A stretch of 64,000 nucleotides of DNA from Limibacillus sp. GTDB lineage: Bacteria > Pseudomonadota > Alphaproteobacteria > Kiloniellales > CECT-8803. Position 1 is the stretch's first letter. Every line of letters starts with the position of its first letter. Of the stretch, positions 4,938-17,126 are shown in pieces. The notes below the pieces were generated by a model. It saw only the letters and a program-made list of their open reading frames with translations, did no database searches and was not told the DNA's origin. The position numbers and the translations under genes are program-made. Location: the NCBI GenBank assembly GCA_037379885.1, contig JARRJC010000002.1, forward strand, positions 113,762 to 177,761, written 5' to 3'.

Positions 4938-5924
4938 TCAGCTGGCGGAGGAGAGGGGTTGGAAGATCACCGGGTGCTGCTGCTCGCGGAACTTGTTGAT
5001 GCCGCAGACCAGCTTGCCGTCCGGCCAGATGTATTCCGCCGTCTCGCGTCTTGGAAAATACGCCGCCGTATAGATTGTCCCGAAGCCGTGTTCGTAGGCC
5101 CGTGTGTAGAGCGGCGGCTGAAGGAAGGCGGCGGCCAGACGTTCAGCCGTCATCTCTGAATCGGAGAGTCGGAAGGAGAGGAAGTTCTCCCGCTCCAGCG
5201 TCGCGGTGGCGCGGGCGTGGTTGTGCCACTCGATGTTGCCCTGGTGGTTGGTGGCGATGGGCACCTGGCGGATCACCGCGCGGCGGTCGGGCGACATGAA
5301 GGCGGTCAGGAAGTTGCCCTTGCGGTCGACCAGCGTCACGTTGTGCGCCATGAAGGACGGCGTGCGGCGCAGGACTTCGCCTGCTTCGCGCGCAGTCTCG
5401 CAGAACTCCAGCAGGTAGCGCACGATGATCGGCATGCCGAAGCCCTCGCCCACCACCCGGCGGCCGCCGAAGGTGAGGCTGACGGCCAGCCCCGCCTCGT
5501 TGATGCCGTCCAGGGCGCCCGACATGGAGTCGATCATCGCGACCACCTTCATGCCGTTCCAGGCCGACCGCAGGATCACCCCGTCGGTCGCGCCGGGCGC
5601 GTAGTCGTAGTTGCGGATCAGCACCGGCTCCTCGCCCGGCCAGACGACCTGGGAGCATCCGGCGATATAGGCCGGCGGCTTCCAGAGGGAGAGGAAGCGG
5701 GCGGCGAGATCGCTGCCGCCGCCCAACTCCACAAGCTCGTCGTAAGTGCGCAGGAAACGCGGCAGGTACTGCTGGATCGCCTCGCGGCATTCCAGATAGG
5801 TCGCGCGGTCCTCCAGCCCCTGGGACAGGAACCAGCTCTTGTAGGCCGGCCAGGAACGCTCGAAGAGCGCCTGCCACTTCGGGCCCGGAGTGGCCTCGTC
5901 GATGGTCTGGAAGTCGAAGCGCAT
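4938..5924 (-). CDS. C45-family autoproteolytic acyltransferase/hydrolase (penicillin acyltransferase type Ntn-hydrolase)
   Basis: A 328-residue protein of the peptidase C45 family (isopenicillin N acyltransferase-like). Family members cleave themselves before a Cys, which becomes the N-terminal nucleophile, and then exchange or remove an acyl group from an amide. The likely nucleophile is Cys90 in YIAGCSQVV; it is followed by the RNYDY motif (residues 104-108) that matches the family RN(F/Y)D signature. Further landmarks are GINEAGLAVSLTFGG and ATNHQ, and the C-terminal part contains YTRAYEHGFGTIYTA. It starts 16 bases after the ATP-grasp gene behind GAAGGGG, so it is surely in the same operon. 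The substrate is unknown; hydrolysis of an acyl-amine made by the neighbour is one possibility. Confidence 0.82.
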   Translation of the reverse strand: MRFDFQTIDEATPGPKWQALFERSWPAYKSWFLSQGLEDRATYLECREAIQQYLPRFLRTYDELVELGGGSDLAARFLSLWKPPAYIAGCSQVVWPGEEPVLIRNYDYAPGATDGVILRSAWNGMKVVAMIDSMSGALDGINEAGLAVSLTFGGRRVVGEGFGMPIIVRYLLEFCETAREAGEVLRRTPSFMAHNVTLVDRKGNFLTAFMSPDRRAVIRQVPIATNHQGNIEWHNHARATATLERENFLSFRLSDSEMTAERLAAAFLQPPLYTRAYEHGFGTIYTAAYFPRRETAEYIWPDGKLVCGINKFREQQHPVIFQPLSSAS

Positions 5925-5940
5925 GAGACCCCTTCGGGTG

Positions 5941-7470
5941 TTAGAGAATCTTGAAGGAGCTTGATCCCACGTGCGGCGAGAGCGACCGGCCGATGAACTT
6001 GCTGCGGAAGCCGTCGATCCACTTCTTGGCGCGCGCGTTCAGCTGGAAGTTCTTGGTCATGAGCCGCCCGCGCGTGATCAGAATGCCCAGGTCCGCGCCC
6101 TCGTAGCGGTAGTCGCCCTTGTCTGAGATGCGCAGGAAGAAGGCCTCGTTCTCGCTCGCCACCGCCCGGCGGTGATAGTCGAAGCGGGAGTACTCCAGGG
6201 AGCCGTCCTCGTTCATGTGATAGATGCCCGATTCCGGCGCATCGACCAGGATGTCCACCGAGTCGTCGGTGTGCTTGATCACCGCCTGGCTCCAGCTGTC
6301 GATGTTCTCGCTATCGGCCCAGCGGTTGTTGATCTCCGAGACGTCCAGGTCGAAGTCGACGCCCGAGAATTCCAGCAGGTGGAACAGGAAGAGCGGCGCG
6401 TCCGCGTGGGCGAAGGCGGCGTGGTTGGTCATGGAACTGGCGCCGGTGACGCGCGGATTGCACTCGCCCAGCCAGATGTCGCCGGACTGGGTGTCGATCA
6501 GGAAGTCGAGCTCGAAGTAGCCGCGGTAGCCGGTCTTGCGCAGCTCCTCACCGAACTTGAAGGTCAGGTCGCGAGCCTTCTCGCGGATCTCCGGGGTGAA
6601 GGAGTCGTCGAAGATCTCGTTGCCGCACCAGCCGCCCTTGTAGGGGGTCAGCTCCTTGAAGCCGACCAGCTCGGTCATCAGCGGGCCGACGATGGTGCCC
6701 TGCTTGGTGGTGCAGGCCTCGATCGCCGAACCGCGGCAGTTGATCCGCTTCATGATCTTGACCTCGCCGCCCTCGATGATCTCGTCGGCGTGCTGCTTCC
6801 AGTCCTTCTCGTTCGAGATGAAGAAGGTGGTGTGGCCGGAATCGCCAAAGGCGGTCTGGATCACCAGGTCCTGGCCCAGCGCCTTGGTCTTGGCGCGCAT
6901 ATCCTCGTAGGAGGAGACCTTGGTCAGGACGTTGGGGACAGACGGCACGCCCGCGCGGTCGCCGATGCGCACGGTTTCGATCTTGTGGTCGATCCTCTCG
7001 CGCAGCTTGGCCTTGGGGAACCAGACGTCCATGCCGGCCTTCTTGGCCAGCGCTTCGGTCTTCTCGTCGAACATCAGGAAACAGGCCTTGGGCTTGCCGC
7101 CGTGGGACTTGATGTAGTCCAGCACTTCCTTGTGCTGAAGCAGGTAGTTGTTGATGTCCTCGATCGACTCGAACTCGGGGTGCGGAATCTCGGTCGGCAC
7201 GAAGGTGTTGGGGTGGCGCCCGTCGTAGCAGTCCAGATAGTTGATGAACTTGAAGCCTCGGCACCACTCGTCCATGCCCAGAAGGTTGAAGTTGGTGGCG
7301 CTGATGAAAAAGATCGGCTGTTCGTTGCGGTGGAAGTAACGGCGGATATCCGAGATGCCGTTCAGCTTCTTGCCCTTGCCGCGGGCCGACGTCTTCTTGG
7401 CCGTCTTGGCCGGGGCTTTTTTCGCCGGGGCCTTTTTCGCCGTTTTCTTGCTCACCTTCTTCTGCGCCAC
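5941..7470 (-). CDS. ATP-grasp ligase (biotin-carboxylase-like) with Lys/Ala-rich N-terminal tail
   Basis: A 509-residue protein. Residues 1-35 are a basic tail with 14 lysines in KKAPAK-like repeats resembling a histone H1 tail. Residues about 40-150 form a preATP-grasp domain, and residues about 155-365 carry an ATP-grasp fold with the acidic metal-ligand signature E320/D322 and GECNPR (E336, N338). ATP-grasp enzymes make an acyl-phosphate and join it to an amine, thiol or similar group. The large C-terminal part (about 370-509) has no domain I recognise. The start is a GTG preceded by GGAGG at five bases. It lies 47 bases after the decarboxylase and 16 before the C45 gene, which suggests it uses the amine product of the former. 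There is no biotin-carrier domain nearby, so true carboxylase function is unlikely. Confidence 0.78.
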   Translation of the reverse strand: MAQKKVSKKTAKKAPAKKAPAKTAKKTSARGKGKKLNGISDIRRYFHRNEQPIFFISATNFNLLGMDEWCRGFKFINYLDCYDGRHPNTFVPTEIPHPEFESIEDINNYLLQHKEVLDYIKSHGGKPKACFLMFDEKTEALAKKAGMDVWFPKAKLRERIDHKIETVRIGDRAGVPSVPNVLTKVSSYEDMRAKTKALGQDLVIQTAFGDSGHTTFFISNEKDWKQHADEIIEGGEVKIMKRINCRGSAIEACTTKQGTIVGPLMTELVGFKELTPYKGGWCGNEIFDDSFTPEIREKARDLTFKFGEELRKTGYRGYFELDFLIDTQSGDIWLGECNPRVTGASSMTNHAAFAHADAPLFLFHLLEFSGVDFDLDVSEINNRWADSENIDSWSQAVIKHTDDSVDILVDAPESGIYHMNEDGSLEYSRFDYHRRAVASENEAFFLRISDKGDYRYEGADLGILITRGRLMTKNFQLNARAKKWIDGFRSKFIGRSLSPHVGSSSFKIL

Positions 7471-7517
7471 TTTTGCCTCCTTGTTCGCTTATCTGAACCG
7501 TTCTACGGGTTGTTGGG

Positions 7518-10310
7518 TCACTCGGCGGCCTGAGCGTCCTCTTCCAAGGCGCCCAGGGACTCCTTGGTGAAGACGCGCAAGCCCAATTCGGGCCTGTAGC
7601 CATGGATTTCCTTGACGTCGAGCTTGCGCATGAAGCTCAGGATCTCCTGGCTCACCACCTGCCCGGGCACCAGAATGGGAAAGCCCGGCGGATAGGGGAT
7701 CACGAACATGGCCGAGACCACGTCCTCCCCCGCCTCGATCAGCTTGTCGATGGCATCGTCCTCGATCGGCAGGTAATCGCACTTGGTGTCGTCGTAGGCC
7801 ATGAAGTAGGCCGTGCGTATGTCGCCCTCGGCGGTCCCGGCGTCCCGACCTGACCTGAAGGCGTCATGGAAACGGCTGAAGTCCGGCAGCGGCGGCAGGT
7901 CCTCGGTCAGGGAGTGGACCTTGCGCTCCTGCACCCGCCGCTCGGCGGTATTGGCATCCCCCAGCTGCTCTTCGATATCATGGGCGATGGAGACCAGCAC
8001 CTCGATCAGATAGGCGACCGAGGAACGCGTGGTTCCGATGTTGGTCATGAACAGGACCGTGTTGCGCGAGGTCTTGTTGATCTGGATGCCGTACTTTTCC
8101 ATTAAGTAGCGGTTCTTGAAGGTGTCGCCATCCACGCCCACGTCGCCGACGAACAGCGTCAGACGGGTCGCGTCCAGCACGAACTCATCCCCGGACCAGG
8201 CTTCCCAGACCCGCGTCCAGCCGTCCTCCGGATCGTAGTACTTCTGGATGCCGGACTCGCGGTACTCCTCCGGGATCATGTCCTTGACGGTCAGAAAGCG
8301 GAAATACTTGCGCAGCAGCGGATGGCTGGCGACCTGCTGGCGCAGGACCATGGCCATCTCGACCTGCTTTTGCACCAGTTCGAAGCCCTCCAGCTCGACC
8401 TGCCGCCGCCCCACGTCCAGGGACGCCAGGATCTGGTAGTTCGGCGAAGTCGAGGTGTGGGTCATGTAGGCCTCGTGGAAGGCGTCTTCCACCTTGGCCC
8501 TGAAGAGCTGGTCGTAGACATGGATCATGGAGCCCTGACGCAGCGAGGTCAGGGTCTTGTGGGTCGATTGGCAGGCGTAGGCCCGCAAGACCGCCTGATC
8601 CGGGTCGGGCATGAGCCGCCGGTCGAGCCAGGTCGCCTCGTCGTCCGGGTCCAGCTTGTCGAACTCGGCCTTCCACTCGGCATAAGCGGCCCGGTAACGC
8701 TCGCTGGCGAAGCGCTCACGCAGCTGCGCTGCGGTGTACATGGCGGTGCGCTGGCGGTAGGTCGGCCCGAAGCGCGCGAAGGCGAACCAGGCCTCGTCCC
8801 ACAGGAAAACGAGGTCCGGCTTGATCGCCAGGCACTCCTGCATCACCCGCTCGACGTTGTAGACGATGCCGTCGAAGGTGCAGTTGGTGAGCAGCAGCAT
8901 CTTCACGCGATCCAGCTTGCCAGCCTTTTTCAGCTTCAAGAGCTGATGCTTGATCTCGCGCAGGGGAACCGCGCCGTACATGGAGAACTTATCCAGCGGA
9001 TAGGAGTCCAGATAGACCACCTGCGCGCCCGACAGCACCATGCCGTAGTGGTGCGACTTGTGGCAGTCGCGGTCGACCAGCACGATGTCGCCCGGCTGAA
9101 TCAGCGACTGCACCACGATCTTGTTGGCTGTCGAGGTGCCGTTGGTGACGAAGTAGGTGTGCTTGGAGCCGAAGGCCCGCGCCGCTAGCTCCTGGGCCGC
9201 CTTGATCGGCCCGTGCGGGTCCAGCAGGGAGTCCAGGCCGCCCGAGGTGGCGGAGGTCTCGGCCAGGAAGATGTTGAGGCCGTAGAAGTCGCCCATGTCG
9301 CGGATCCAGTGCGACTTGGTGATCGACTTTCCGCGTGAGATCGGCATGGCGTGGAACACGCCGGTCGGCTGGCGGCTGTATTCGCGAAGCGCCGAGAAGA
9401 AGGGCGACTGATAGCGCTTGTTGACGCCGCGCAGGATGTTCAGGTGCAGCTCGAAATAGTCTTCCTGATTGTAGAAGACCCGGCGGCAGTTCTCCGGCAC
9501 GCGGCCCGCCACGTCCTCGACCGACTGGTCGGTCACCAGATAGTAGTCCAGCTCCGGACGGACCTTGCCGATGCAGGACGCGAGAGCGACGCCGTAGTCC
9601 TCCTGACGCAGATCGTCCAGGTCCAGATCTTCGACGCGGGTCAGGTAGCGGTGGAGCAGCGCCATCTGCTGGTTGGAGCGGAAGCGGAAACCATAGCGGG
9701 CCACCACCGCCTGGATGTTGTGATTGTGCAGCACGGCGATGATGGCGTCCTCGAAAGACGGCACGATCACCGCTTCGTAGATGAACTTATCCTCCTCGCG
9801 GCGCATGCGGCGCAGGCTGCTGCGCAGCGCGGTCTCCTGGCTGGGGGAGATGTCATCGACGACAAGCACTTCGAAATAGGGGCGCTGGTGGGCCACCTCC
9901 TCGGCGTGCTCAATTGCGTCCTCCGCCTCTTCCCGGTCCTCGTTGTCGGCGTTCAGCCCGAGCGGGATCACTTTGTGGCGGTAGGCGTTGCTCATCAGGC
10001 CGCGCACGATCCGCGCCGAGGAGCGCGACAGCGTCACGTAGTCGCCGTCTTCGAAGTGTTTGCGCAGGCGTTGGAAGTTGTGCCGCCCGGGAAAGGCCCA
10101 AAAGCCTTCGATGGGCTCCAGCAAGGCCAGCGCCTCGGCGACGGAGCGTTGCAGCTTCGCGGCGTCGGGGCGGTCTGGTCTTTCGGCAAGGCGTGCGGCG
10201 TCCGACTTCAGGCGGCTCCAGGAATCCGCGCGCAGTTGGGAGGCATTGTAGTAGTCACTGAGGGCGGGTCCTTTCGGCCCCTCGACGGGCGTCTCGCTAT
10301 CACCGCTCAT
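7518..10310 (-). CDS. Orn/Lys/Arg decarboxylase, enlarged class I (AdiA/LdcI-type) PLP enzyme
   Basis: A 930-residue PLP-dependent decarboxylase, about 180 longer than AdiA or LdcI. Residues about 145-290 are the flavodoxin-like wing domain (starting YFEVLVVDDIS). The PLP fold follows: VTNGTSTANKIV, DRDCHKSHHYG, FLWDEAWF, and the Schiff-base Lys585 in QSTHKTLTSLRQGSMIH. The extra length comes from about 140 residues before the wing domain and an insert of about 50 residues (about 525-575) just before the PLP lysine. The C-terminal domain ends with MFVIPYPPGFPILVPGQ. It should turn arginine, lysine or ornithine into agmatine, cadaverine or putrescine; the substrate cannot be told from sequence alone. 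A GGGGAGG site precedes the ATG. It appears to lead the operon with the ATP-grasp and C45 genes. Confidence 0.9.
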   Translation of the reverse strand: MSGDSETPVEGPKGPALSDYYNASQLRADSWSRLKSDAARLAERPDRPDAAKLQRSVAEALALLEPIEGFWAFPGRHNFQRLRKHFEDGDYVTLSRSSARIVRGLMSNAYRHKVIPLGLNADNEDREEAEDAIEHAEEVAHQRPYFEVLVVDDISPSQETALRSSLRRMRREEDKFIYEAVIVPSFEDAIIAVLHNHNIQAVVARYGFRFRSNQQMALLHRYLTRVEDLDLDDLRQEDYGVALASCIGKVRPELDYYLVTDQSVEDVAGRVPENCRRVFYNQEDYFELHLNILRGVNKRYQSPFFSALREYSRQPTGVFHAMPISRGKSITKSHWIRDMGDFYGLNIFLAETSATSGGLDSLLDPHGPIKAAQELAARAFGSKHTYFVTNGTSTANKIVVQSLIQPGDIVLVDRDCHKSHHYGMVLSGAQVVYLDSYPLDKFSMYGAVPLREIKHQLLKLKKAGKLDRVKMLLLTNCTFDGIVYNVERVMQECLAIKPDLVFLWDEAWFAFARFGPTYRQRTAMYTAAQLRERFASERYRAAYAEWKAEFDKLDPDDEATWLDRRLMPDPDQAVLRAYACQSTHKTLTSLRQGSMIHVYDQLFRAKVEDAFHEAYMTHTSTSPNYQILASLDVGRRQVELEGFELVQKQVEMAMVLRQQVASHPLLRKYFRFLTVKDMIPEEYRESGIQKYYDPEDGWTRVWEAWSGDEFVLDATRLTLFVGDVGVDGDTFKNRYLMEKYGIQINKTSRNTVLFMTNIGTTRSSVAYLIEVLVSIAHDIEEQLGDANTAERRVQERKVHSLTEDLPPLPDFSRFHDAFRSGRDAGTAEGDIRTAYFMAYDDTKCDYLPIEDDAIDKLIEAGEDVVSAMFVIPYPPGFPILVPGQVVSQEILSFMRKLDVKEIHGYRPELGLRVFTKESLGALEEDAQAAE

Positions 10311-10358
10311 GTGAGGCCTCCCCTTGCCGGGAAGCCCCTCAATCGGCCTCTTTCGTGA

Positions 10359-11333
10359 TTACGGCTCGTAGTACCCCTTTGCTCCGCCAACAACCGCAAA
10401 CGCGGACCCTGCGGGCGCTTCCGAAGAAGACGCTTGGTCTTGCGCACCGTGATTCTCTCCCTGCCTGTTCAATCCAGCGCGTGAACCGCGCTTTGGAACT
10501 TCTAAGGGGCCAAGCGTATCAAGATAGCCATAGCCCGTCGAATCCCTCCTGTAGACGTCGAAATCCACAACCCGGTCCCGGAAGGATTTCATCGGCTGGC
10601 CCAGGCCCTTGAGGCCGAATTCGCGCTGACGGCGCACCTGATCCAGATCGATCTCGAGCGGTATGTACTCTTCCTGCCCGGCCGCCTGATAGAGCATCTG
10701 GCCGGAGGGGTCGAAAACGGCGGAACGCCCGACGCCACCGGCGCCCACGCCGTTGATGTCGAAGACGTAGCACTGGAACATCGCCGAGGTCGCGCGGGCG
10801 ATGGAGACTTCCACGTCGCGGTCCAGCGTGCCGGTCAGGACCGGGTGCAACAGCACCTCCACGCCCTGAGATACCAGCGTGCGCGTGGTCTCCGGGAACC
10901 AGATGTCGTAACAGATGGTCACCCCGAAACGCCCGATCTCAGGCACATCGAAGACCAGGAAGTCGGCCCCCGACTTCACATCGTGCTCGTAGGGGGCAAA
11001 GGGGAAGAGCTTGCGGTGGCGCCCCACCAGTTCGCCATTGGGATTGAACACGCTGGCGGTGTTGTAGACGCCCTCGTCACGCCCCTCAAACATCGAGCCG
11101 GAAACCAGCCAGATGCCGTGATGGCGCGCCCAGCCCGCCATCACCTCCTCGGTGCGTTCGAAAGAGCCGGCGTTCTCCTGAACCGGACCGAAAGCAGCCA
11201 GCTCGCTGAAGACCACCATCTGCACCCAGGGAAAGCGCCCCATCAGGAGGTCGAGCTGGTGCTTCATGTGGCTGACGTTTTCATGCGCAGCGGCCACGTG
11301 CAGCTGCATGCCGGCGATAGCGAAGGGAGTCAC
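10359..11333 (-). CDS. Carbon-nitrogen hydrolase (nitrilase superfamily)
   Basis: A 324-residue amidase. The Glu-Lys-Cys triad is visible as E44 (FSEL), K107 (HRKLFPF) and C140 (TICYDIWFPE), numbered from the chosen start. The superfamily cleaves non-peptide C-N bonds; N-carbamoylputrescine amidase (AguB) is one relevant member, since the next gene is an arginine/lysine/ornithine decarboxylase 48 bases downstream. The last about 45 residues are Gly/Ser/Ala-rich and look like an unstructured tail. The GTG used has GGAG nine bases upstream; a GTG five codons earlier is possible. No agmatine deiminase (AguA) is in the window, so an AguB role is only a guess. Confidence 0.82.
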   Translation of the reverse strand: MTPFAIAGMQLHVAAAHENVSHMKHQLDLLMGRFPWVQMVVFSELAAFGPVQENAGSFERTEEVMAGWARHHGIWLVSGSMFEGRDEGVYNTASVFNPNGELVGRHRKLFPFAPYEHDVKSGADFLVFDVPEIGRFGVTICYDIWFPETTRTLVSQGVEVLLHPVLTGTLDRDVEVSIARATSAMFQCYVFDINGVGAGGVGRSAVFDPSGQMLYQAAGQEEYIPLEIDLDQVRRQREFGLKGLGQPMKSFRDRVVDFDVYRRDSTGYGYLDTLGPLEVPKRGSRAGLNRQGENHGAQDQASSSEAPAGSAFAVVGGAKGYYEP

Positions 11334-11446: not shown

Positions 11447-11914
11447 TCAAAAAACCCCGGCGTCCAGACCGGCGGCCAGCAGCATGCCGCGCTCGCGCAC
11501 CTGACCGAGAAAGGCGTCGGCCCATTCTCCACGGCAGATCAGGGGTTCCTCCACCGCGCGCCAACGCAGGCCTGTGGTGATGCCCTCGACGGCCCGCGTG
11601 GTGCCGGTGCCGTCATGGCCCGCCCGGATATAGAGGGCAAAAGGCAACCCTTGGGTCTCCTCCAGGCAGGGATAGTAGATCCGGTCGAAGAAGTCCTTCA
11701 GCGCGCCGGACATGTAGCCGAGGTTCTCGGTCGTGCCGAGCAGGATCGCCGAGGCCGCCTTGACCTCCTCCGGCCCAGCCTCGAAGGGCGTGAGCGCGCG
11801 CACCTCCACCCCGTCGCCGCCGCCTTCGCGCGCGCCTTCAAGGGCGGCATCGCGCAAACGCTGCGTGTTCGGCGACGGCACATGGCCGACGATCAGGAGC
11901 TGCTTTCTAGCCAT
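11447..11914 (-). CDS. Flavodoxin-like / NADPH-dependent FMN reductase family protein
   Basis: A 155-residue protein with the flavodoxin-like layout: IVGHVPSPNTQRL as phosphate-binding loop, a central AILLGTTENLGYMSGALKDFFDRIYYP segment typical of FMN reductase and flavodoxin families, and FALYIRAGHDGTG. It presumably binds FMN and acts in the cytoplasm as an electron carrier or quinone/flavin reductase. It sits between glnT (183 bases away, nothing recognisable in the gap) and the amidase gene, all on the same strand. The partner is unknown. Confidence 0.72.
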   Translation of the reverse strand: MARKQLLIVGHVPSPNTQRLRDAALEGAREGGGDGVEVRALTPFEAGPEEVKAASAILLGTTENLGYMSGALKDFFDRIYYPCLEETQGLPFALYIRAGHDGTGTTRAVEGITTGLRWRAVEEPLICRGEWADAFLGQVRERGMLLAAGLDAGVF

Positions 11915-12097
11915 CTCAACGGGCGTTCTAGCAGATCGTTGCGCCCGCTTCAGCCCCTGGATGGCTCCACCCGCCTTTCAGTTGCCGAATCCGCCGCCTT
12001 CGACGTCGCTGGTGATGGCGGCGATGGAGGTGGCGCCATGGACCTCGGCGGACGAAGGACGAAGCGCCGTATTGTATTGTTTTGTCGCTTAAAACCC

Positions 12098-13402
12098 TCA
12101 GCAATCCAGGGTGTGCTGGCGCTCCCACTGGGTCAGGTGGCGCGAGTAGTCGTTCCATTCCTGGCCGCGAATCTTCAGGTAGGCGGCGTGGAACTCGGCG
12201 CCCAGGGCCTCCTTCAGGAACTTGCTCTTCTCGAAGGCGCGCAGCGCGTCGATCAGGTAGAGCGGCAGCTTCTTGGCCTTCACCTTGTGACCCTCGGCGT
12301 ACATGTCGATGTCGAGGCGCTTGCCCGGGGAGCGCTTCTCGGCCATGCCCTCCAGCCCCGCGGCGATGAACCCGGCCTGCGCCAGATAGGAGTTGGTGGC
12401 GCCGTCGGCCAGGCGGAACTCGAACCGGCCGCCTTCGGGCACGCGAACCAGATGCGTGCGGTTGTTGCCCGACCAGGTGATGGTGTTGGGCGACCAGGTG
12501 GCGCCCGAGGCCGTGACGGCCGCGTTCAGGCGCTTGTAGCTGTTGACCGTCGGGTTGGTCAGCGCGCAGAGCGCCTCGGCGTGGTGCAGAACGCCCCCCA
12601 GGAAGGCGTAGGCGGGCTTGGAGAGGCCCAGCTCGTCCTTGGCGTCATCGAAGAGGTTCTTCTTGCCCGTCTTGTCCCAGAGCGAGAGGTGCACGTGGCA
12701 GCCGTTACCCGTCAGGTGCGCAAAGGGCTTGGGCATGAAGGTCGCGCGGAAGCCGTGCTTCTCGGCGATGGAGCGGACCATGTACTTGAAGAAGACATGC
12801 CGGTCGGCCGTAGTCAGCGCCTCCGAATAGTGCCAGTTCATCTCGAACTGGCCGTTGGCGTCCTCGTGGTCGTTCTGGTAGGGGCCCCAGCCCAGCGCCT
12901 GCATGCCGTCGCAGATTTCAGAGATGACATCGTAGCGGCGCATCAGGATGGCCTGGTCGTAGCAGGGCTTGGGGTCGCTGTCCTTGGGGTCGGAAAGACC
13001 CTCGCCCTCGGGATCGATCAGGTGGAACTCGGGCTCGACGCCCGTCTTGACCACGTAGCCCTTCTTGGCGGCGGCCTCGATCTGGCGCTTCAGCACCCAG
13101 CGCGGCGCCTGCTCGACCGGCTTGCCGTCCATGTAGAGGTCGCTGGCGACCCAGGCGACGTCCGGGTTCCAGGGCAGCACGATGGCGCTTGACGGGTCGG
13201 GCAGGGCGAACATGTCCGGGTGCGCCGGGGTCATGTCCAGGTGGGTTGCGAAACCGGCGAAACCGGCGCCGTCCTTCTCCATATCCGCGATCGCCGCGGC
13301 CGGCACCAGCTTGGAGCGCTGCACGCCCTTGAGGTCGGTGAAGTTTATCAGGAAGTAGCGGATCTTCTTGGCCTTGGCCAAATCGTTCAGTTTGCTCGCC
13401 AT
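12098..13402 (-). CDS. glnT: Type III glutamine synthetase-like / gamma-glutamylmethylamide synthetase-like
   Basis: A 434-residue GS-fold ligase of the GlnT/GMAS group. Visible catalytic-core motifs are VEPEFHLID, GQFEMNWHYSEAL, NGCHVHLSLWD, NPTVNSYKRLN and RFEFRLADGATNSYLA. GS enzymes activate the glutamate gamma-carboxyl with ATP and join it to ammonia or, in GMAS and PuuA, to an amine. It lies 80 bases after glxD behind GGGGAG and completes a glxB-glxC-glxD-glnT cluster. In methylotrophs the equivalent set is mgsABC-gmaS of the N-methylglutamate pathway, but the mgdABCD dehydrogenase is absent here. Glutamine versus gamma-glutamyl-amide synthesis cannot be settled from sequence. Confidence 0.82.
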   Translation of the reverse strand: MASKLNDLAKAKKIRYFLINFTDLKGVQRSKLVPAAAIADMEKDGAGFAGFATHLDMTPAHPDMFALPDPSSAIVLPWNPDVAWVASDLYMDGKPVEQAPRWVLKRQIEAAAKKGYVVKTGVEPEFHLIDPEGEGLSDPKDSDPKPCYDQAILMRRYDVISEICDGMQALGWGPYQNDHEDANGQFEMNWHYSEALTTADRHVFFKYMVRSIAEKHGFRATFMPKPFAHLTGNGCHVHLSLWDKTGKKNLFDDAKDELGLSKPAYAFLGGVLHHAEALCALTNPTVNSYKRLNAAVTASGATWSPNTITWSGNNRTHLVRVPEGGRFEFRLADGATNSYLAQAGFIAAGLEGMAEKRSPGKRLDIDMYAEGHKVKAKKLPLYLIDALRAFEKSKFLKEALGAEFHAAYLKIRGQEWNDYSRHLTQWERQHTLDC

Positions 13403-13482
13403 GAGGCTCCCCTGTTCGTCGATGTTGTCTCGCGGTCTGGTTCTTTTCCCGGTTTTCCGCCCTTCGCATGGCGTTCGCTCAC

Positions 13483-14820
13483 CTAACGCAATCCTGGAAT
13501 CCAGTCGGTTCCGGCCAAGGGCACCTTGGCCATGGCCGCCGCCTCCAGGGTCAGCGCCTGCAGGTCCTCGGGCTCCAGGTTATGGAGGTGACTCTTACCA
13601 CAAGCCCGCGCCAGGGTCTGCGCCTCGAGCGTCAGGACCCGAAGGTAGTTGGCCAGGCGGTGCCCCGCCTTCACGGGGTCCAGACGCCGGGCCAGCTCCG
13701 GGTTCTGGGTGGTGATCCCGGCGGGATCGTTGCCCGCCTGCCAGTCCTCGTAGAAGCCCGGTGCGGTCCCCAGCTTGGCGTATTCCTCGGCAAGATCGGG
13801 CCGGTTGTCGCCCAGCGCGATCAGCGCCGCCGTGCCGATCGAAACCGCGTCGGCGCCGAGCGCAATGGCCTTGGCCACGTCCGCGCCGGATCGAATCCCG
13901 CCGGAGACGATGAGCTGCACGCCCTTCCTGTGCAGTCCCAGTTCCTGGAGCGCCTCGGTCGCCAGACGCACGGCGGCCAGGGTCGGGATGCCGACATGCT
14001 CGATGAAGCACTCCTGCGTGGCGCCGGTGCCGCCCTGCATGCCGTCCACCACGATCACGTCCGCCCCGGCCTTCACGGCCAGCATGGTGTCGTAGTAGGT
14101 GCGGGTCGCGCCGACCTTCACGTAGATCGGCTTCTCCCAATCGGTGATCTCGCGCAGCTCGCGGATCTTGATCTCCAGGTCGTCGGGCCCGGTCCAGTCG
14201 GGATGGCGGCAGGCGCTGCGCTGGTCGATGTTCTTGGGCAAGGTGCGCATTTCGGCCACGCGGTCCGATATCTTCTGGCCCAGCAGCATGCCGCCGCCGC
14301 CGGGCTTGGCGCCCTGACCGATCACCACCTCGATGGCGTCGGCGCGGCGCAGGTCGTCCGGGTTCATGCCGTAGCGAGAGGGCAGGTATTGGTAGACCAG
14401 CGTCTTGGAATGCCCGCGCTCCTCGTCGGTCATGCCGCCGTCGCCGGTGGTGGTGGAGCTGCCCACTTCGCTGGCGCCGCGCCCCAGCGCCTCCTTGGCG
14501 TTGGCCGAGAGCGAACCGAAACTCATGCCCGCGATGGTCACCGGGATGTCCAGCTTGAGCGGCTTGGAGGCATGGCGCGTGCCCAGCAGCACGTCGGTGC
14601 CGCAGCGCTCGCGGTAACCCTCCAGCGGATAGCGCGAGACCGAAGCGCCCAGGAAGATCAGGTCGTCGAAGTGCGGCAGTGCGCGCTTGGCCCCGAAGCC
14701 GCGAATCTTGTAGATGCCCTCAGAGGCGGCGCGCTGGATCTCGTGGATTGTGGCGCGGTCGAAGAGGCTGGATTCGCGCAAGGTCGGATGGTCGTGGCTC
14801 ATCGAGGGGTCCTCGCTCAA
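13483..14820 (-). CDS. glxD: Glutamate synthase-like FMN-binding subunit GlxD
   Basis: A 445-residue (beta/alpha)8 barrel matching the FMN domain of glutamate synthase large subunit. It has MSFGSLSANAKEALGRGAS, GDGGMTDEERG, the PGGGGMLLGQK loop, VDGMQGGTGAT, and SGGIRSGADVAKAIALGAD for FMN phosphate binding. The cysteine-rich loop that binds the 3Fe-4S cluster in GltB (CHLNTCPVG type) is here DWQAGNDPAG, without cysteines. With GlxB and GlxC it forms a split glutamate-synthase-like or N-methylglutamate-synthase-like enzyme. Its start overlaps the glxC stop by four bases. Confidence 0.86.
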   Translation of the reverse strand: MSEDPSMSHDHPTLRESSLFDRATIHEIQRAASEGIYKIRGFGAKRALPHFDDLIFLGASVSRYPLEGYRERCGTDVLLGTRHASKPLKLDIPVTIAGMSFGSLSANAKEALGRGASEVGSSTTTGDGGMTDEERGHSKTLVYQYLPSRYGMNPDDLRRADAIEVVIGQGAKPGGGGMLLGQKISDRVAEMRTLPKNIDQRSACRHPDWTGPDDLEIKIRELREITDWEKPIYVKVGATRTYYDTMLAVKAGADVIVVDGMQGGTGATQECFIEHVGIPTLAAVRLATEALQELGLHRKGVQLIVSGGIRSGADVAKAIALGADAVSIGTAALIALGDNRPDLAEEYAKLGTAPGFYEDWQAGNDPAGITTQNPELARRLDPVKAGHRLANYLRVLTLEAQTLARACGKSHLHNLEPEDLQALTLEAAAMAKVPLAGTDWIPGLR

Positions 14821-15497
14821 TAGGCGTCGACGTTGTCGACCTTGAAGTTGTAGAGCTGGCGGGCGGAGCCGTAGCGGCGGAAGTCCTTCGGGTCGGCGTC
14901 GCTGCCCGCCGCCGCCAGCAGCCCGGCCAGTTCCTCCAGGTGCTCAGCCCGCATTTCCTTTTCCACGCAGTCCGCGCCCAGGCCGCGCGCCTCACCCTTC
15001 AGATAGATGCGCGCCTCGTAGATGGAATCGCCGAGGCCGTCGTCGGCGTCGCCGCAGATCACCAGCCGCCCGGCTTGCGCCATGAAGGCCGAGTTATGGC
15101 CGACCGAGCCCTTCACCACGATGTCCACGCCCTTCATGGAGATGCCGCAGCGCGCCGAGGCGTTGCCGTCGATCACCAAGAGGCCGCCGTGGGCGGTGGC
15201 GCCCGCGGATTGGCTGGCGTCGCCCTTCACCCGGACCGTTCCGGACATCATGTTCTCCGCAAGACCGACGCCGGCGTTGCCCTCGATGACGATCTCGGCC
15301 TGCTTGTTCATGCCGGCGCAGTAGTAGCCGACATGCCCCTTCAGCGTGACGGAGATCGGCGACATCAGGCCGGCGGCGACGGCGTGCTCACCCTTGAGGC
15401 CCGTGACCTCGAAGGCGGTTTCCTCCGCGCCCTCGCGGCCCTGAAGGCGGCGGTTCACGGCGCGCAAGCCCAATTCGGCAAGGTCAAGCTTCTCCAT
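14817..15497 (-). CDS. glxC: Glutamate synthase-like C-terminal beta-helix subunit GlxC
   Basis: A 226-residue protein equal to the C-terminal right-handed beta-helix domain of glutamate synthase (GXGXG repeats). The repeats are visible as ISVTLKGHVGYYCAGMN, IVIEGNAGVGLAENMMSG, VRVKGDASQSAGATAHGG and IVVKGSVGHNSAFMAQAG. It is structural and joins the amidotransferase and FMN subunits. The ATG chosen starts five bases after glxB ends; a longer in-frame reading into glxB is not needed. It overlaps glxD by four bases. Confidence 0.86.
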   Translation of the reverse strand: MEKLDLAELGLRAVNRRLQGREGAEETAFEVTGLKGEHAVAAGLMSPISVTLKGHVGYYCAGMNKQAEIVIEGNAGVGLAENMMSGTVRVKGDASQSAGATAHGGLLVIDGNASARCGISMKGVDIVVKGSVGHNSAFMAQAGRLVICGDADDGLGDSIYEARIYLKGEARGLGADCVEKEMRAEHLEELAGLLAAAGSDADPKDFRRYGSARQLYNFKVDNVDAY

Positions 15498-15502
15498 GAC
15501 CC

Positions 15503-16402
15503 TCACGCGGCCCCCCAGCTGTAGACCGTGGCCGGCTTGGGTTCCCAGACCTTGGCCTTCTCCACGCCCGGCAGACCGGCGAGAGAGCGGTATTCGGAGG
15601 CCATGGCCACCCAATCGTCGGTTTCGGCCAGGACCGCGGGCTTGCAGGCGATGGGGTCGCGCAGCACGGCGAAGCCGTCCTTGGTTCCGACCGCGAAGGT
15701 GTAGAAGCCGTCCAGGTCGCTGAGCGCGGCCTCCAGCGCCTCGGCGATCGACGCGCCTTCCCGCAGCCGCCAGGTGAGATAGCCGGCCGCCACTTCCGAA
15801 TCGTTCTCCGTCTGGAAGACGATCCCGGCCTGACGGGTCAGCCAGTCGCCAACCTTGTGATGGTTGGAGAGCGAGCCGTTGTGAACGAGGCAGAGGTCGT
15901 CGCCCGTGTTGAAGGGGTGCGCGCCCTGGGTCGTCACCGCGCTTTCCGTCGCCATGCGCGTGTGGCCGATGGCGTGGCTGCCGCTCATCTGGGCCGCGCC
16001 GAAACGTTCCAGCACGTCGCGCGGCAGCCCGATTTCCTTGAAGATTTCCAGCGAACGGCCCGCCGACATGATGCGCAAGGGTGGATCGCGCCGCTCCAGC
16101 CAGGCGCGCATCTCCGCCGGATCGGCCTTGGCGTGCAGCACGGCGTGCGTGGACAGCCGCTCGACGGAGACGGGCACGCCCATATCGGCGCTCATGGCCT
16201 CGGCCAGCGCCTGCCAGTCGAAAGCCGGATCGGGATCGTATAGCGTGATCTTGGCCGCGGCCTCTTCAGCGCCCCGGTAGACGGCGAAACCGGCGGAATC
16301 CGGCCCCCGGTCCGACATTTCCTCCAGCATGGGGCAGAAGAGACGCCCCAGCTCTCCATAACGCTCGGGATTCTTGAGATAGAGACCGGCGATGCCGCAC
16401 AC
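15503..16402 (-). CDS. glxB: Class II glutamine amidotransferase subunit GlxB
   Basis: A 299-residue Ntn-type glutaminase. Cys2 of MCGIAGLYLKN is the N-terminal nucleophile after Met removal. Other class II signatures are GHTRMATES, HPFNTGDDLCLVHNGSLSNH and NDSEVAAGYL. It releases ammonia (or transfers the gamma-glutamyl moiety) for the GlxC/GlxD partners and is the first gene of glxBCD-glnT. An imperfect inverted repeat lies in the promoter region, between it and the XRE-cupin gene, which is itself transcribed toward glxB. Confidence 0.88.
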   Translation of the reverse strand: MCGIAGLYLKNPERYGELGRLFCPMLEEMSDRGPDSAGFAVYRGAEEAAAKITLYDPDPAFDWQALAEAMSADMGVPVSVERLSTHAVLHAKADPAEMRAWLERRDPPLRIMSAGRSLEIFKEIGLPRDVLERFGAAQMSGSHAIGHTRMATESAVTTQGAHPFNTGDDLCLVHNGSLSNHHKVGDWLTRQAGIVFQTENDSEVAAGYLTWRLREGASIAEALEAALSDLDGFYTFAVGTKDGFAVLRDPIACKPAVLAETDDWVAMASEYRSLAGLPGVEKAKVWEPKPATVYSWGAA

Positions 16403-16453
16403 TTGGCACTCTCCCCACGGCTGAGAACTCGGTTGAGGAGAGATTACATATAA

Positions 16454-16470
16454 GAAACGATGTTTATTTC
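16454..16470. promoter_or_regulatory. Imperfect palindrome upstream of glxB, candidate XRE-cupin operator
   Basis: GAAACGATGTTTATTTC contains the perfect inverted repeat AAAC-GAT-GTTT in an AT-rich patch 52-68 bases before the glxB start and directly after the XRE-cupin gene. Its position fits autoregulation or control of glxBCD. The assignment to this regulator is inference only. Confidence 0.3.
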
Positions 16471-16481
16471 AAGGAATATGT

Positions 16482-17126
16482 TCAGGCGTTCTCGCCGCGC
16501 GGGTAGGAGATGACGGACAGGTAGATCGCGGGCAGCGAAACCAGCTCCATGGGCCCATGCATCACAATGGCGTCGAAGAACAGAGAATCGCCGGGTTTCA
16601 GGTGAAAGGACCTGTCGCCGTGCCGGTAGATCACCTCGCCGGAGAGCATGTAGATGAACTCCACGCCCTCGTGCCGGAACTGATCGTAAGGCTCGGACTC
16701 CTCCGTCAGCGTGATGAGGTAGGGCTCGACCCCCACTTCGCCCCGGACGCCGTGGCCCAGAAGTTTGTAGAGGTGCCCGGCGCGCGTGCCGCGCCGGTCG
16801 ATGTCGAGCCCCTGGTCCTTCGGTACGTAGGTCACGTCCCGGCTCTGCTCGAAGGGCGCGAAGAAAGCGGAAATCGGCACGTTCATGGCCTCGGCCAGCG
16901 CGGCGAGGGTCGAAAGCGAAGGGGCCACCTGCCCATTTTCGATCTTGGAGAGCATGCCCTGGGAGACCCCGGCCTGCTGAGCCATCTCGGCCACCGTCAG
17001 CCCGTGGCGCTTACGGTGGCGGCGGATCTCAATGCCGATGTAGTGCTCCAGGCGCCGCCCTTCGGACGCCCCAGGCTCTTCCTGCACCGCCGGCGAAACC
17101 GTCACGCGTTGCTTGTCTTCGGCCAT
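16482..17126 (-). CDS. XRE-family regulator with C-terminal cupin domain
   Basis: A 214-residue DNA-binding protein. Residues about 28-85 form the helix-turn-helix (IRRHRKRHGLTVAEMAQQAGVS, QGMLSKIENGQ), and residues about 125-210 form a cupin_2 barrel (HEGVEFIYMLSGEVIYRHG, FHLKPGDSLFFDA). Regulators of this layout (PuuR, for example) sense small metabolites, often amines or amino acids, in the cupin. It is the first gene of the minus-strand run leading to glxBCD-glnT and the decarboxylase operon, so it may control either. An AAGGAAG ribosome site precedes the ATG. Confidence 0.88.
   Translation of the reverse strand: MAEDKQRVTVSPAVQEEPGASEGRRLEHYIGIEIRRHRKRHGLTVAEMAQQAGVSQGMLSKIENGQVAPSLSTLAALAEAMNVPISAFFAPFEQSRDVTYVPKDQGLDIDRRGTRAGHLYKLLGHGVRGEVGVEPYLITLTEESEPYDQFRHEGVEFIYMLSGEVIYRHGDRSFHLKPGDSLFFDAIVMHGPMELVSLPAIYLSVISYPRGENA

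Follow-up and report, generated by a model that had tools for sequence, protein, structure and literature searches.

DavA is a nitrilase-superfamily amidase, and the gamma-glutamylputrescine (Puu) pathway employs a ligase and an amide hydrolase as a masking cycle that feeds gamma-aminobutyric acid (GABA). In the Dav route lysine 2-monooxygenase (DavB) acts first and is followed by 5-aminovaleramidase (DavA) (PMC12930585). Here we describe a four-gene operon within a 64,000-nucleotide stretch of a Limibacillus sp. genome (the window), encoding a nitrilase-superfamily amidase (NIT), a pyridoxal phosphate (PLP)-dependent decarboxylase (DC), a stand-alone ATP-grasp protein (ATPg) and a C45 enzyme of the N-terminal nucleophile (Ntn) type. 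The operon is real and widespread, its enzyme families are known, and the open literature searched does not describe it. Catabolism is its most likely role, in preference to acyl-amine synthesis. The four genes are as follows.

10359-11333, minus strand: NIT, nitrilase-superfamily amidase and first operon gene (PF00795, 104 bits), proposed carboxamide hydrolase
7518-10310, minus strand: DC, 930-amino-acid PLP-dependent Orn/Lys/Arg-type decarboxylase (PF01276, 261 bits), proposed oxidative (O2) decarboxylase
5941-7470, minus strand: ATPg, stand-alone ATP-grasp protein (NF005096, 768 against a cut-off of 684), proposed amide ligase
4938-5924, minus strand: C45, Ntn-type acyltransferase/amidohydrolase and last operon gene (PF03417, 106 bits; NF040521, 177 against a cut-off of 85), proposed deacylase

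The operon resembles the Dav route in its proposed course from amino acid through carboxamide to omega-amino acid, and in one related cluster (L139) a flavin monooxygenase of the 3we0 type lies by NIT. However DavB is a flavin enzyme whereas DC in the window uses PLP, and ATPg and C45 have no Dav counterpart. NIT, a candidate DavA-type amidase, belongs to the nitrilase fold family and keeps its catalytic residues, with mouse Nit2 as the best solved relative of its profile. The Puu pathway differs in that the operon ligase is an ATP-grasp protein rather than a glutamine-synthetase type and the operon hydrolase is a C45 Ntn enzyme, and no enzyme of the PuuA, PuuB, PuuC or PuuD type occurs among the four operon genes. 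The whole arginine route through AruI (5-guanidino-2-oxopentanoate) and guanidinobutyrase is co-located with NIT-ATPg-C45 at four loci (L058, L063, L088 and L144), although DC is absent there and ATPg and C45 lie outside the known route. Isopenicillin N acyltransferase (IAT) has the predicted fold and nucleophile position of C45 at an identity of about 13%. The ectoine degradation operon doeA-doeB-doeX-doeC-doeD, which hosts the module in Halomonadaceae, encodes a described pathway without the four genes (PMC5320631, PMC5924519). The four-gene set did not turn up in the open-licence PubMed Central literature searched, in keeping with the first-pass annotation of the locus, which could name no known pathway with exactly the decarboxylase, ATP-grasp and C45 families.

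Conservation and genomic settings

Within the window the genes are separated by 48 (NIT-DC), 47 (DC-ATPg) and 16 bases (ATPg-C45), with ribosome sites before ATPg (AAGGAGG), DC (GGGGAGG) and C45 (AAGGGG); open reading frames (ORFs) and family matches agree with the first-pass annotation on this layout. NIT starts with GTG at 11333, a choice backed by homologues beginning MTPFAIAG, the open frame itself extending to 11348. NIT is a member of the operon and not a mere neighbour.

Searches that we started from ATPg alone recovered the same neighbours in 18 named genome contigs, in plasmid records and in genomes of the order, class, phylum and two families. This gave 93 called loci, a few of which are the same genome met twice; class and family names of the sampled genomes were inferred from named relatives and gene content. 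The first-pass annotation had proposed recurrence of its three families in the same order as a check, and the families proved to be conserved together: 46 of the 93 loci read NIT-DC-ATPg-C45, 20 NIT-ATPg-C45-DC and 10 DC-ATPg-C45. ATPg and C45 are the most constant pair, abutting in 86 of 93 loci with a median gap of 6 bases, and DC is the most dispensable member. Carriers are scattered marine, halophilic and soil members of the Alpha- and Gammaproteobacteria, where the module is patchy (8/289 Alphaproteobacteria and 9/350 genomes of the gammaproteobacterial class); it occurs in 29 of 149 genomes of one Rhodobacteraceae-type family and in 27 of 101 Halomonadaceae. Among the latter DC and ATPg occur together in 26 genomes, ATPg only in 1, DC only in 0 and neither in 74 (Fisher p 3e-23), the corresponding counts in a second sample drawn from relatives being 10, 1, 1 and 46 (p 2e-9). 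Pairwise-distance matrices of the four proteins correlate at 0.89-0.96 (66 loci, with no species-tree control), which shows joint inheritance and nothing beyond. It is well supported that the four genes form an operon co-inherited far beyond chance, and that this module has a catabolic setting.

The genes adjoining the module vary with lineage. In Rhodobacteraceae clusters we identified gabT (543 bits against a cut-off of 507) and succinate semialdehyde dehydrogenase (SSADH; 720 against 646), as well as cupin-domain regulators and a TAXI-TRAP transporter with a universal-stress protein. Rhodospirillales loci (L032, L033, L047, L049/L084) have an agmatinase-type ureohydrolase upstream (186 against 174). 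One of these, L047 (CP051228.1), is titled a Mesoflavibacter metagenome-assembled genome, and its cluster looks alphaproteobacterial with an ATPg 77% identical to that of the window; the assembly is possibly mislabelled or mixed. Halomonadaceae display the arrangement doeA-doeB-doeX-[NIT-ATPg-C45-DC]-doeC-doeD in 19 of the 20 loci fetched (L096, L097, L103-L120; the exception is L119).

Certain clusters retain NIT, ATPg and C45 without DC. These include L058, L063, L088 and the gammaproteobacterial L144, with hosts including Shinella, Sinorhizobium RAC02 and 'Roseateles' XES5, which carry instead the keto-acid decarboxylase AruI (737 against 500), an aldehyde dehydrogenase, a D-amino-acid dehydrogenase and an ornithine-racemase-like enzyme, together with a ureohydrolase. 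L139, also without DC, has at 22 bases from NIT-C45 a flavoenzyme of the lysine-2-monooxygenase type that is related over its full length to the L-amino acid oxidase/monooxygenase 3we0 (957 bits). Symbiotic plasmids of Rhizobium and S. meliloti carry DC-ATPg-C45 with a dipeptide-type ABC transporter and an amidase-signature amidase, and in some strains nif genes adjoin. Among the Rhizobium sym-plasmids one locus (L089) is decaying, with DC split, the gene after ATPg shortened and insertion sequences adjoining, and another (L093) has a second, shorter ATPg copy. The deep-branching loci L101, L102, L149 and L150 all encode tetratricopeptide repeat (TPR) and barrel-like proteins. In L101 and L102 a fusion of a urea transporter (PF03253, 118 bits) with an M23 peptidase precedes DC-ATPg-C45 and barrel-like genes follow, an arrangement that looks like another use of these enzymes, linked to the envelope.

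Residues and structural matches of the four enzymes

We located the following residues by alignment and structure comparison.

8556-8558, minus strand: DC Lys585, PLP Schiff-base lysine (STHK), by alignment with AdiA K386, CadA K367, SpeC K347 and SpeF K355
8076-8078, minus strand: DC Asn745, aligning with CadA E526, SpeC E524 and SpeF E532 (AdiA T571)
7659-7661, minus strand: DC Gln884 (PYPPGFPILVPGQ), aligning with the PGE Glu of the E. coli enzymes
5655-5657, minus strand: C45 Cys90, predicted nucleophile freed by cleavage Gly89|Cys90, from conservation and structure alignment

Judged from these alignments the predicted catalytic residues are intact in NIT, DC and C45. DC belongs to the ornithine/lysine/arginine (OKR) decarboxylases and has the PLP lysine, the Asp and the His that mark their fold-type I core; Lys585, Asp505 and His417 are kept in 73/73 DC relatives and match AdiA, CadA, SpeC and SpeF. 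The distal acidic residues of lysine and ornithine decarboxylases (CadA E526/E663, SpeC E524/E663) are not kept, DC having Asn745 and Gln884 in their place, and no NCBIfam model of these decarboxylases scores above its cut-off for DC. Asn is found at position 745 in 73/73 relatives and in M. tuberculosis Rv2531c, and Gln at position 884 in 71/73 relatives and in Rv2531c, where AdiA, CadA, SpeC and SpeF all have Glu (PYPPG...GE motif). In the Lactobacillus 30a decarboxylase the counterpart of SpeF E532 presumably touches the distal amine. Judged by the two pocket residues Asn745 and Gln884 and by the neighbouring genes, DC is not a plain polyamine enzyme; had it been one, the first-pass annotation would have counted this against its own proposal. 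The nearest solved protein to DC is the uncharacterised Rv2531c (9n0n, 867 bits; also 9n0o; PMC12910592), a member of the same subfamily that aligns over its full length and agrees with DC at both pocket residues.

In NIT residues Glu49, Lys113, Glu121 and Cys146 (numbering of the 329-amino-acid ORF) are invariant in 15 diverse relatives. Assignment of NIT as an N-carbamoylputrescine amidase (AguB) was rejected, TIGR03381 giving 60 bits against a cut-off of 410, and agmatine-deiminase/AguB chemistry was set aside with it.

ATPg has no Pfam match and contains the invariant motifs GDSG and E-x-NPR (E336, N338, R340). An AlphaFold model of ATPg (17 close homologues) has a low-confidence predicted local distance difference test score (pLDDT) of 54, and Foldseek with this model returned 507 PDB chains at E<=0.001 with ATP-grasp proteins topmost; these matches support a predicted ATP-grasp fold, not any ligase type. 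The ATPg profile search reached mostly biotin-carboxylase-like chains, the similarity to PDB entries being partial and weak, and single-sequence PDB searches with C45 and ATPg gave nothing useful. The NF005096 label of biotin carboxylase was set aside for ATPg, no biotin carboxyl carrier protein or carboxyltransferase being recognised among annotated or labelled neighbours. An N-terminal tail of about 35 residues rich in Lys, Ala and Pro is present in ATPg of the window and in L074, L082 and L032, and absent from the Roseobacter copy L037.

C45 Cys90, the predicted autoprocessing residue whose absence would have refuted the first-pass proposal, is invariant in 20 diverse relatives and structurally placed in the predicted model (pLDDT 87.7). 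The model best matches 2x1c, the precursor of isopenicillin N acyltransferase (Z 29.3, rmsd 3.2 over 303 residues). Mature penicillin V acylases, bile salt hydrolases and acid ceramidase (from residue 143) align with it from residue 90 onwards. Family score and an N-terminal-nucleophile Cys in a predicted Ntn fold place the protein in the C45 family, and the model suggests an IAT-type Ntn enzyme that is complete. A Sulfitobacter C45 homologue (L090, 41%) was rejected as a module member; with no ATPg, DC or NIT adjoining, it looks like a paralogue.

A possible catabolic route and its alternatives

We tentatively propose, as a possibility short of even odds, that the module is mobile and takes arginine, ornithine or a closely related basic amino acid to the omega-amino or guanidino acid one carbon shorter. 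DC with PLP and O2 would carry out an oxidative decarboxylation that yields a carboxamide (or aldehyde), with no simple amine released, and NIT would hydrolyse the carboxamide. ATPg would load the omega-nitrogen with a carrier group, either acyl or aminoacyl, keeping intermediates from cyclising, and C45, self-cleaved at Cys90, would remove it. The product would enter GABA-type metabolism through an aminotransferase and a semialdehyde dehydrogenase, or through a ureohydrolase, encoded adjoining the module in many genomes. What we infer here are all the substrates, the reaction of DC with O2 and the masking function of ATPg and C45.

A course from basic amino acid to omega-amino acid (e.g. GABA) is suggested because the Rhodobacteraceae, Rhodospirillales, Halomonadaceae, AruI-type and L139 contexts converge on it. 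Shortening an amino acid to the acid with one carbon fewer releases CO2 and takes away four electrons, and both routes that replace DC are formally oxidative decarboxylations of this kind, the AruI-type clusters supplying two redox enzymes for the four-electron step and L139 an O2-using oxygenase. Most DC-bearing clusters contain no oxidase gene, and on the simplest reading DC itself reacts with O2. Precedents include the Lactobacillus 30a ornithine decarboxylase, of the same family as DC, which performs decarboxylation-dependent oxidative deamination with O2, and Cap15, a PLP carboxamide-forming monooxygenase-decarboxylase (PMC7497351). The statement of the first-pass annotation that the decarboxylase gives an amine may not describe the role of DC, which is dispensable and replaceable by other oxidative-decarboxylation enzymes. 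The amine-conjugation pathway envisaged there held as to its families, co-inherited operon and amide chemistry, but not as mainly acyl-amine synthesis, since the telling partner genes are catabolic. Conjugation by ATPg and its reversal by C45 is plausible as a masking cycle inside catabolism, and by analogy with family chemistry a cycle like that of PuuA and PuuD may be the best explanation of the pair.

Several observations weigh against the proposed route. Cap15 belongs to another PLP family than DC, and the Lactobacillus 30a precedent yields a carbonyl, not an amide. Replacement of DC by a flavin monooxygenase was seen once only (L139). NIT is missing from L101, L102 and L149, which have DC-ATPg-C45, and from the Rhizobium and S. 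meliloti symbiotic-plasmid clusters, where an amidase-signature amidase is present; conversely NIT is retained in AruI-type clusters, where no carboxamide should form, and L140 has ATPg-C45-NIT with gabT and no visible amide source. The Asn/Gln signature of DC is common to Rv2531c and hence not module-specific. Partner genes, for which the first-pass annotation had suggested a search, were found in other clusters (gabT, SSADH, ureohydrolases, the AruI set and doe genes) but no partner enzyme, doe genes included, lies beside the window operon, and the gabT-like proteins (best 39%) and ureohydrolases (39%) of the window's genome are distant.

A reading that we regard as doubtful, a catabolic form of the amine conjugation suggested in the first-pass annotation, has DC make a plain amine (such as agmatine or putrescine) that ATPg would couple to an acid, much like gamma-glutamylation in the Puu pathway; enzymes encoded elsewhere would oxidise the conjugate, with C45 and NIT removing the amides. 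DC keeps all core PLP residues of its family, a ligase with an Ntn hydrolase fits PuuA/PuuD logic, cupin-domain regulators and gabT adjoin Rhodobacteraceae clusters, and some 3 kb from the L099 cluster there is a protein with a histone-deacetylase domain that, by eye, resembles acetylpolyamine amidohydrolases. However an amine needs a four-electron oxidation to reach GABA and yet an oxidase is absent from most clusters, no amine arises from the enzymes found in place of DC, and DC lacks the acidic residues of lysine and ornithine decarboxylases.

An unlikely alternative is that ATPg and C45 form and cleave an amino acid conjugate serving as storage, osmolyte or signal, DC and NIT tuning precursor supply. 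The position of the module inside the ectoine-degradation operon of halophiles and its presence in marine Roseobacters would suit such a role, as would the barrel-like and TPR genes of the deep-branching clusters, but partner genes elsewhere are catabolic (gabT, SSADH) and the main clade has no conserved export gene. Quite unlikely, in our estimate, is an imported peptide or amide opened by C45 and NIT (or the amidase-signature amidase), with ATPg re-ligating or activating a fragment and DC consuming the released amino acid. Pointing that way are ABC transporters of the dipeptide type (Rhizobium, C. necator, R. ponti, L131, L139), TAXI-TRAP with universal-stress protein in many Roseobacters and, for L139 and L131, dipeptidases of the M19 and M20 types, although transporter types vary by lineage and none is found in Halomonadaceae clusters or the window. 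That DC is an ordinary polyamine biosynthesis enzyme with unrelated neighbours is highly improbable; its family includes Orn/Lys/Arg decarboxylases, but strict co-inheritance and order across two classes contradict this and no polyamine-synthesis gene is conserved nearby.

A broader version of the proposed oxidative route, more speculative and rather unlikely as a whole, would make DC the founder of an OKR branch that turns amino acids into carboxamides with PLP and O2, partnered in masked catabolism by an ATP-grasp ligase and a C45 deacylase that cleaves itself, and would place Rv2531c in the same branch.

Window flanks, further observations and implications

Upstream of the operon a consensus scan gave the following feature.

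11457-11472, minus strand: terminator-like hairpin and T-run where the upstream FMN-reductase-like gene ends

The hairpin probably sets the operon apart, with NIT as the likely opener of the transcription unit; the scan gave 6 terminator-like sites against 4.6 expected in shuffles. The window genes flanking the operon (hydroxypyruvate-isomerase-like, EamA, type III glutamine synthetase and glutamate-synthase-like) are not common to the other clusters, except for a distant FMN-GltS (31%) that adjoins the module in some Roseobacter clusters. The upstream set (11447-17126, minus strand) of an FMN-reductase-like gene, type III glutamine synthetase, three glutamate-synthase-domain genes and an XRE-cupin regulator resembles an N-methylglutamate-synthase-like arrangement. 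The glutamine synthetase at 12098-13402 fits type III (657 against 470 bits), scoring 272 with the gamma-glutamylputrescine synthetase model (cut-off 650). The window's genome has one C45-family gene only.

A small protein with the motif QGFRYWWTRNDLE recurs by gammaproteobacterial clusters (L119:5778-6506, L147:4695-5171 and L148:6457-6855), with no Pfam match in L119 and L147, and a VOC/glyoxalase-fold protein recurs by the cluster in L140 (6219-6746), L147 (4114-4677) and L148 (6979-7545). Beside the R. leguminosarum WSM1689 cluster (L061:2617-6451) the record's annotation gives a Nif11-like precursor of a ribosomally synthesised and post-translationally modified peptide, radical-SAM maturases and an acyl-homoserine-lactone synthase.

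If the proposed route is true, an unnamed pathway of basic amino acid breakdown would be present in about a fifth of the Rhodobacteraceae-type and a quarter of the Halomonadaceae genomes sampled, sitting in the ectoine-degradation operon of halophiles and, in some rhizobia, on symbiotic plasmids by nif genes. It would also give testable functions to an ATP-grasp family labelled 'biotin carboxylase' and to a C45 subfamily and, by homology, would provide a lead for M. tuberculosis Rv2531c.

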